From Clavelina lepadiformis (taxonomy: Eukaryota; Chordata; Ascidiacea; Aplousobranchia; Clavelinidae), in contig NC_135241.1 in NCBI RefSeq assembly GCF_947623445.1, forward strand, positions 188,501 to 252,500: a DNA stretch of 64,000 nt. The letters are read 5' to 3'. Below the pieces are notes generated by a model. That model was not told where the DNA came from and made no database searches. It worked only from the letters and a program-made list of their open reading frames with translations. Below, piece after piece: positions 44,601 to 47,600 of this stretch. A program made the position numbers and the translations under genes. How positions within the stretch are numbered: the stretch's first letter is position 1; each line of letters opens with the position of its first letter.

Positions 44601-47600
44601 TGTGTTGGCTGCCGTTGTCATCATCACCGGATGTTTCCAGTATTACCAGGAATCGAAGAGCTCCAAGATCATGGAATCTTTCAAGAACATGGTGCCACAG
44701 GTGAGTCCACAAACTCAATGCATTAATCATCATTGGCTTCATATCACAACTTCATTCCTTCTCGCAGCATGCCCTTGTGATTCGAGATGGAGAAAAATCG
44801 CAGATTCTTGCAGAAAATCTCGTCCTGGGAGACATCGTAGAGGTGAAGGGCGGAGACAGAATCCCGGCTGATCTAAGAATTATCTCTGCATCTTCGATGA
44901 AGGTCGGTAGCATTCATCATCACACCACAGAGTGGTTTTAAAGTAACGTGGGTTGTTTCTCACCCAGGTTGACAACTCATCACTGACGGGGGAGTCAGAG
45001 CCACAATCTCGCTCGCCAGAATGCACCAACAGCAACCCAGTTGAAACCAGAAACATTGCCTTCTTCTCGACCAACTGCGTTGAAGGTAAGATCTGGAGGA
45101 AACATATAAAGAGGAAGATCGAGGGAATTTAAATTGAGTTTGTTCAGGGTCAGGACGAGGTGTGATGATCAGAGGAGGAGATAACACAGTGATGGGGAGA
45201 ATAGCCTCCCTCGCTTCAGGACTCGAGACAGGGTTGACTCCACTTGCACGCGAAGTTCACAATTTTGTCAAGATTGTATCAAGTGAGAGGCAGAAAGTGA
45301 ATTTGAACTCGGTCAGGGGCAGTTCAAGGTCAAGGTTTTATTGAAAGAAGCAAGCAAGCACGAAGAAGTTGAGACAGAAAAGGTCGAAGATCGTAGAAGT
45401 TGAAGGACATAGAAATAAAATCTGCTGACGATTTCAGGTTCCGCTCGTGGTATTGTCATCAAGTGCGGTGACGACACGGTGATGGGACGTATCGCATCCC
45501 TTGCATCCGGACTGGAAGTCGGTGACACCCCCATAGCTCGTGAGGTCGAACATTTTATCCACATCATCTCAGGTTTGTTTTCTTTCATGGAGGGAGCTTG
45601 GAAGCATGTCCAGGTTGCCTAGCAACCGAAGCTTGATGAGGATATTGCTTGTGGTGCTGCTTATAATTTGCTTTCAAATAACCTTGCAATTATCCACCTA
45701 TTGCTGTGATTTGCAAATTGCTATCTAAGTTGCACACGGCATGAACTAACATTGTCAAAGCCTTCGTTTTCCATGGAAGGTTGTTGAGACTTAGTTGGAT
45801 TGAGATGAGGGCAGGTGTGAGGGGAAGGATGCTTATGTCAGGCAGGAACAGTTCAATCTAGTTTCTGCCCTGGTTTGGTTTGAATTTTAATTTGTAAATA
45901 TTTCAAAGACGACTCACGAGCATTAACTGAGCCTCCGTGTAGGTTCCGCGCGGGGCGTCATTATTATGTGCGGAGACGACACCGTCATGGGCCGCATCGC
46001 CAACCTTGCGTCGGGATTGTCCACCGGGCAAACTCCGATAGCTCGAGAAGTTGAACATTTTATTCACGTTATCTCAGGTTTAGAGATTTCTGTTTGTTGC
46101 CTTCCCCCCCATGCGTCGTGTCTGATGTTTCGAAGTAAAGTTCACCACATATTCGAGTGCTTAGAGCAAGTTTTGTGCAAAAATTATCCATGGACGTTTT
46201 TCCTTGCAAATACCCATCTTATGTCTCGTGTCTATTTGCTGTGCTTGTGACCGTAACATTAATTTGCTACTTTCTGTGTAAATGTCGTCTTAAGCCGCTT
46301 GACTTTGCTATGACTTCTGGTTATTCATTAACCCTGTTAATAATTAATCTACTTTAAATGGAATCACCCTTGCACTGCTACCTGCTCATTGCTGTTTGTT
46401 TGAGCAGATTAGTTCCACGAAAAGTATTTCTTCTCGATCATCCATGTTAGCATGCTCTCTAACATATGGTGTTATCATTTCAGCTAATCCATGACATGTA
46501 TTATGTGCTGCATGCCAGATTGTACAAATTGAATCTTGTAGTTGCTTTGATTTTGTGGTGAAACTTGTCGTAACAGCTTTAATTACGACAGCTCAGTAAT
46601 TTTGGACTATTTTTAAACATTGTCTTTAATTTCATTTGAAGTAGTTTGCATGAACTGACTCATTCAAGTTTTGATTGTTTACAAAATGTTTGAATTTACC
46701 TGATTAAATTAATCATTAAATTCAGTTTATTGCAAATGCCATATTCTTTTGAGTATGGCACACTTACTGTGATTTCTATGGCAGGTGTGGCTGTCTTTCT
46801 CGGAGTCACCTTTTTCATCATCTCCCTTGTTCTCCATTACTCCCCACTCGAAGCAACGGTCTTCCTCATCGGGATCATCGTCGCAAATGTGCCTGAAGGT
46901 CTGCTGGCCACCGTCACCGTGAGTATGATGTCCATTGTTCAATTCCTCGAATGTCTGCTCATGGTCAATCACTGGATGTCTGTTGCCAAATATTTATACA
47001 TTTGGGATAATTTTTCAGGTTTGTCTGACGTTGACGGCCAAGCGAATGGCGAGGAAGAATTGTCTGGTCAAGAACTTGGAAGCCGTGGAAACACTCGGCT
47101 CAACTTCAACCATCTGCTCGGACAAGACGGGAACTCTGACACAGAATCGAATGACGGTCGCGCATATGTGGTTCGACAACGAGGTCGTTGAGGCCGACAC
47201 CACTGAGGACCAGTCAGGTTGGTCGGTTGTCAACTTATTCCACGACAATTCCAGATCTTTTGCTTAATCTTGTTATTTTTGTGATGAAAGGAACAACGTT
47301 CAACACGAAGTCCGAGACTTGGGTGGCGCTGTCCAGAGTGGCCACTCTCTGCAACCGAGCCCAGTTCTTGCAGGGAGAGGAGAGCAAACCTGTGCTTAAG
47401 AGGAACACAGCCGGTGCGTGGATTGTCAACTGGATGCTTTTCATACTCGAATCTTCGTAATCGATAACTTGTCCACTAGGTGATGCTTCCGAGTCTGCCC
47501 TTTTGAAGTGTGTCGAACTTTCTCTCGGAGATGTTGAGAAACGTCGAAAGAGGAACGCAAAGATTTGTGAGATTCCATTCAACTCAATGAACAAATACCA

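Follow-up and report, generated by a model that had tools for sequence, protein, structure and literature searches.

Tandem copies of an exon, similar to one another and used in a mutually exclusive manner, are already described in the Na+/K+-ATPase alpha gene of arthropods, and the array reported here is likewise one of tandem, similar exons in this gene, very probably mutually exclusive as well. As given in the accessible part of PMC3793950, the arthropod copies are those of exon 11: barnacle NAK1 carries 11a and 11b, two to four copies are found in Daphnia, Anopheles, and Ixodes, and four in Drosophila. Because these copies represent exon 11 of 15, their identity with the segment considered below is doubtful, though possible. 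For Drosophila, the accessible portion of PMC6733596 records that two alternatively spliced exons were masked in alignments of ATPalpha1 and mentions an exon 6b, and that of PMC11765297 records a change in exon inclusion in ATPalpha, outside the mutually exclusive events of that paper. A preliminary description of the present locus had mentioned alternative exons in Drosophila Atpalpha, which PMC3793950 and PMC6733596 support as far as their accessible text goes. The plasma-membrane calcium pump family is listed among convergent tandem-exon events in PMC9741552, the accessible part of which does not name ATP1A, and the corresponding parts of PMC8503543 and PMC4302446 contain nothing on this pump segment. 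Dscam-type arrays are composed of tandem homologous exons of similar length, one of which is used (PMC6071210 and PMC8042237, partial texts), and the array described here is alike in arrangement, length, and homology, and very probably in use. A survey of titles and the beginnings of abstracts, with few subscription papers, provided a weak indication that such an array is undescribed in a pump gene of tunicates or other deuterostomes. The array is a further case of a known gene design.

The window, that is, the whole 64,000-nucleotide stretch of Clavelina lepadiformis DNA that was analyzed, contains two Na+/K+-ATPase alpha genes, gene 1 and its intact tandem paralogue directly downstream, gene 2 (1032 aa). 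The relevant features are as follows.

44118..50021, + strand: Na+/K+-ATPase alpha gene 1, with GT-AG at all inner borders, one terminal stop, and six Pfam families
44968..45085, + strand: constitutive exon with TGES, ending in phase 1, donor AAG/GTAAGA
45086..45147, + strand: intron before cassette a, 62 nt, usual size for gene 1
45148..45282, + strand: cassette a, the most divergent of the three, 135 nt, phase 1-1, with His where 3wgu has Glu282, net charge +2
45283..45437, + strand: a-b intron, 155 nt
45438..45572, + strand: cassette b, 135 nt, phase 1-1, nearest to the compared alpha-1 and alpha-3 segments, the version in the pseudogenes on contig C3
45573..45942, + strand: b-c intron, 370 nt, second longest of gene 1
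45943..46077, + strand: cassette c, 135 nt, phase 1-1, with CAG/GTTTAG as a weak donor
46078..46784, + strand: intron after c, 707 nt, longest of gene 1, three GCATG sites
46785..46918, + strand: downstream constitutive exon, encoding VAVFLG of M3 and what follows it, fused to b in the pseudogenes
47019..47217, + strand: next exon, with DKTGT, its first part joined without an intron in the pseudogenes
52978..53246, + strand: gene 2 exon matching the array segment, one undivided 269-nt exon (135 + 134), array absent

The model of gene 1 consists of 19 predicted constitutive coding exons and one cassette, which together amount to 3015 nt (1004 aa). Placing the start codon at 44118 is a guess, as the upstream frame is open to a possible acceptor before 44050. 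Transcripts with a, b, or c alone each have a single terminal stop and encode a whole protein. The six Pfam families include E1-E2_ATPase, Cation_ATPase_N, Cation_ATPase_C, and Hydrolase, and the joined protein carries both the TGES and DKTGT motifs, as befits a P-type ATPase. When 196 residues were searched against the PDB, the best matches were Na+/K+-ATPase alpha-1 chains, at 360.8 bits, compared with 305.3 bits for 6jxk (potassium-transporting ATPase alpha chain 1); judged by these matches, the product is nearer to Na+/K+ than to H+/K+ pumps.

Each cassette is preceded by AG and followed by GT, starts and ends in phase 1, and encodes its own version of one 45-residue segment. The preliminary description was accurate in the coordinates, the 135-nt lengths, the phases, the flanking donor at 45085 and acceptor at 46785, and the assignment of the three versions to one segment of a Na+/K+-ATPase alpha gene, the 1004-aa product being intact with each. 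It placed the segment just after TGES, and the segment does lie after this motif, but the wording is loose: in the chain numbering of 3wgu, TGES occupies 212-215 and the cassette extends from 245/246 to 289/290, with codon 245 split, so that it starts ~31 residues away. Nor is the 62-nt intron before a, described as very short, unusual in length, given that the 17 introns of gene 1 outside the array measure 60-160 nt. The further claim of good splice sites holds for a and b and fails for the donor of c. Donor scores are 7.9, 6.6, and 2.3 bits for a, b, and c, respectively, against a reference median of 7.0, and only 3 of the 38 reference donors score lower than that of c; the acceptors score 6.8 (a), 8.5 (b), and 6.2 (c), against a median of 7.5. 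The references are 38 donors and 38 acceptors taken from both pump genes in the window, some of them near-copies because the two genes exchanged sequence, and one of the acceptors is wrong (55479 for 55477, gene 2).

The cassettes are symmetric, and double inclusion, as had been predicted, stays in frame; the same is true of zero and triple inclusion, inner stops being absent from all double and triple combinations. The reading frame therefore cannot enforce the choice. Lack of room would hardly be the barrier either: at 155 nt, the a-b intron exceeds 16 of the 17 introns of gene 1 outside the array. Double inclusion would then be blocked during splicing. Tandem arrangement, homology, like length, and shared phase are among the marks by which mutually exclusive arrays are recognized, and a, b, and c display these. 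We consider it very probable that these are three mutually exclusive exons of a Na+/K+-ATPase alpha gene, each transcript containing one of them, flanked by the constitutive exons with the donor at 45085 and the acceptor at 46785.

Partial proof of such a choice is preserved elsewhere in the genome. Queried with the 196-residue segment, the same genome returned 14 matches; cassette b by itself returned six, namely the three cassettes, gene 2, and two loci on contig C3 that the first query also matched (L021 and L022, at about 23.66 and 23.73 Mb, ~69 kb apart). The two loci show ~99% identity across almost the whole 7.5 kb compared, with a duplication of at least 7.4 kb, and hence most likely derive from a single event, later duplicated. 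The stretch in question is a degraded processed copy of gene 1 mRNA with gap-free junctions from b to 46785 and from 46918 to 47019; cassette c, which in gene 1 lies between b and 46785, is absent. Out of 95 sites in the aligned cassette part, the copy is identical to b at 88, to c at 65, to a at 59, and to gene 2 at 66, and where b and c differ (26 aligned sites) it agrees with b at 24, with c at one, and with neither at one. Its part of the 46785 exon matches gene 1 at 112 of 133 sites and gene 2 at 80, and its part of the 47019 exon does not tell the two genes apart (67/84 and 66/84, respectively); corrected gene 2 exons were used for these comparisons of sites and junctions. Identity to gene 1 is lower in the two following exons than in the cassette part, and much of the later mRNA is missing, short fragments of later exons following. 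Read from its sequence, the copy is the fossil of a presumably germline mRNA that included b and skipped c. It might date from a time when gene 1 was without c; however, b and c are 73% identical and the copy is 93% identical to b in the cassette part, so that b and c were already well separated. The copy breaks off within b and carries no information on a, and b alone and a together with b score equally; the six matches to cassette b include no fossils of a or c transcripts. A broken retrocopy that preserves a splice choice makes it possible to study exon exclusion where a genome comes without RNA data.

The fossil also bears on whether the cassettes are strictly exclusive or two of them can be included together, which would lengthen the protein and repeat the segment. 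The latter is consistent with the open frame of all double and triple combinations and with the failure of the intron pairing tests to find an enforcing structure; yet the fossil transcript has b directly on 46785, the segment is gap-free in the PDB alignments, and a second M3 start should not fold. We regard joint inclusion as highly improbable, and prefer one cassette per transcript.

How the choice would be enforced is a separate matter. In insect Dscam, exclusion has been attributed to competing base pairing between a docking site and selector sequences in the introns, a general model (PMC6071210 and PMC8042237, partial texts) that the introns after b and c, long for gene 1, could accommodate. 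The preliminary description had drawn attention to complementary intron sequences between cassettes, but pairing was no better than in shuffled sequences in any of the six intron pairs: free duplexes did not exceed dinucleotide shuffles (12 of 60 shuffles were as good in the best case), nor did near-contiguous helices (7 of 40 in the best case, with energy parameters of the scorer entered by hand). These tests used this genome alone, and weak conserved pairing could be missed. Rfam had no match in 44900-47100. Unlike in Dscam, the array is small and docking/selector pairing was not detected in the six intron pairs, and we consider this mode of exclusion unlikely here.

Eight splicing-factor motif patterns were also compared with shuffles, and none was significant once all eight were counted. 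GCATG, an RBFOX-type motif, occurs 5 times where 1.8 would be expected (a count attained in 60 of 2000 shuffles), and YGCY 25 times against 18.7 (50 of 2000 shuffles), and runs of five T and TGTGT/GTGTG are fewer than in shuffles. The GCATG sites lie at 45604, 45739, 46450, 46510, and 46648, in the two long cassette introns; gene 2's 799-nt intron has none.

Regulation by protein, with repression of a and assisted use of c from the long introns, would be the most likely arrangement. Cassette a is the nearest to the upstream exon, and its sound sites and short intron suggest that it would be taken by default unless repressed; use of b and c would then require repression of a. Cassette c, with its weak donor, would need the aid of a regulatory protein that works from the two long introns (370 and 707 nt).

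The choice of cassette would alter the charge near the point where M3 begins. Net charge of the segment is +2 in a, -2 in b, -1 in c, and +2 in gene 2. At the membrane edge, b and c have Glu282, His283, and His286, as does the alpha-1 segment of 3wgu (presumably pig); the alpha-3 segment compared (8d3u, which we take to be human) has Gln at 286, and cassette a has His282, Asn283, and Lys286. The segments of alpha-1, alpha-3, and the proton pump that were compared all retain Glu282, and gene 2 has Gly282. The proton-pump query, assumed to be from the gastric proton pump, was aligned to 9vvo, labelled Na+/K+, with 6jxk scoring the same. Mutagenesis of Glu282 is reported to disturb the E1/E2 equilibrium, and since a alters both this residue and the charge, a kinetic difference among the a, b, and c isoforms is plausible. 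Vertebrate ATP1A comprises several alpha isoforms encoded by separate genes, and these vary at some of the cassette-variable positions (250, 253, 272, 274, 286, and 287 when the alpha-1 segment is set against that of alpha-3), whereas gene 1 would vary by cassette instead. We tentatively suggest, without counting it as the probable outcome, that splicing acts as a switch on the pump's charge at the membrane edge, via a (His282, Lys286, +2), such that the E1/E2 balance would vary by tissue or life stage, as opposed to being set by separate genes as in vertebrates. If the three cassettes serve as alternatives, the gene would provide a natural three-way set of pumps differing only in the actuator-to-M3 segment, making the effect of this segment on E1/E2 kinetics directly measurable.

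The same residues raise the question of whether only b, perhaps with c, is really used, a being a relic or a rare exon that retains an open frame. Cassette a was rightly described as the most diverged, with 25 of 45 residues identical to the 3wgu alpha-1 segment, compared with 31 for c and 34 for b, the nearest; it changes Glu282, constant in the segments compared, and the sole fossil transcript carries b. However, intact gene 2 also departs at 282, and a has, besides its open frame, a sound donor and acceptor. Moreover, its residue conservation is far above neutral decay. Across the three cassette pairs, pS is 0.68-0.86 against a pN of 0.12-0.22, and the residues in common, out of 45, number 31 (a-b), 30 (a-c), and 37 (b-c). 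Near-saturated synonymous sites combined with 30-37 common residues indicate long purifying selection. When neutral decay was simulated from b, an open frame with 31/45 identity was obtained in 0 of 5000 runs at the nucleotide difference of a, and an open frame with 37/45 identity likewise in 0 of 5000 at that of c, a simulation that is blind to recent loss of function in a. With its residues furthest from relatives, a could be a recently dying exon. On balance, we consider exclusive use of b, or of b and c, quite improbable. Under the favored reading, in which all three cassettes serve the gene, it is selection that suggests a role for a and c at some stage or in some tissue.

Four neighboring exons compared between gene 1 and gene 2 have pS of 0.69 to 1.01. 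These values resemble those of the cassettes, so that the array and the gene pair may be of roughly equal age, within the limits of saturation and gene conversion. The three quartet topologies relating the cassettes and gene 2 differ by at most ~2.6 log units, with the grouping of b with c and of a with gene 2 slightly favored; likelihood mapping on one quartet was uninformative on the order of cassette duplication.

The undivided exon of gene 2 implies an additional intron in gene 1 at the cassette end, which was either gained before the exon duplication or else lost in gene 2. In human, too, one 269-nt exon spans this segment, as in gene 2 and unlike gene 1, which would favor intron gain in gene 1. 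From the sequence comparison, gene conversion between gene 1 and gene 2 is patchy and has spared the cassette region. Between 47019-48969 of gene 1 and 54046-56079 of gene 2, five exon stretches are 92-99% identical, and the flanking introns of most of them 89-97%; the other exons compared are 62-81% identical.

The search with the 196-residue segment also matched contig C6 at 7462996 and 7476529 and, weakly, contig C4 at 20882212. The first C6 place (7462996) is a P-type ATPase by Pfam and looks SERCA-like from its motifs. A viral_contigs scan for relatives matched four stretches, none of which was confirmed. Glycoside hydrolase 6, sought as a tunicate marker, had no match in this genome, but it matched 0 of 14 control genomes too, and its absence is therefore no guide to tunicate affinity. 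The 799-nt intron of gene 2 contains an inverted repeat at 53400-53990, perhaps a small mobile element, with one pair of 89-nt arms (53459-53547 and 53842-53930) that are 93% complementary and a second pair of 61 nt (53400-53460 and 53930-53990) at 90%.
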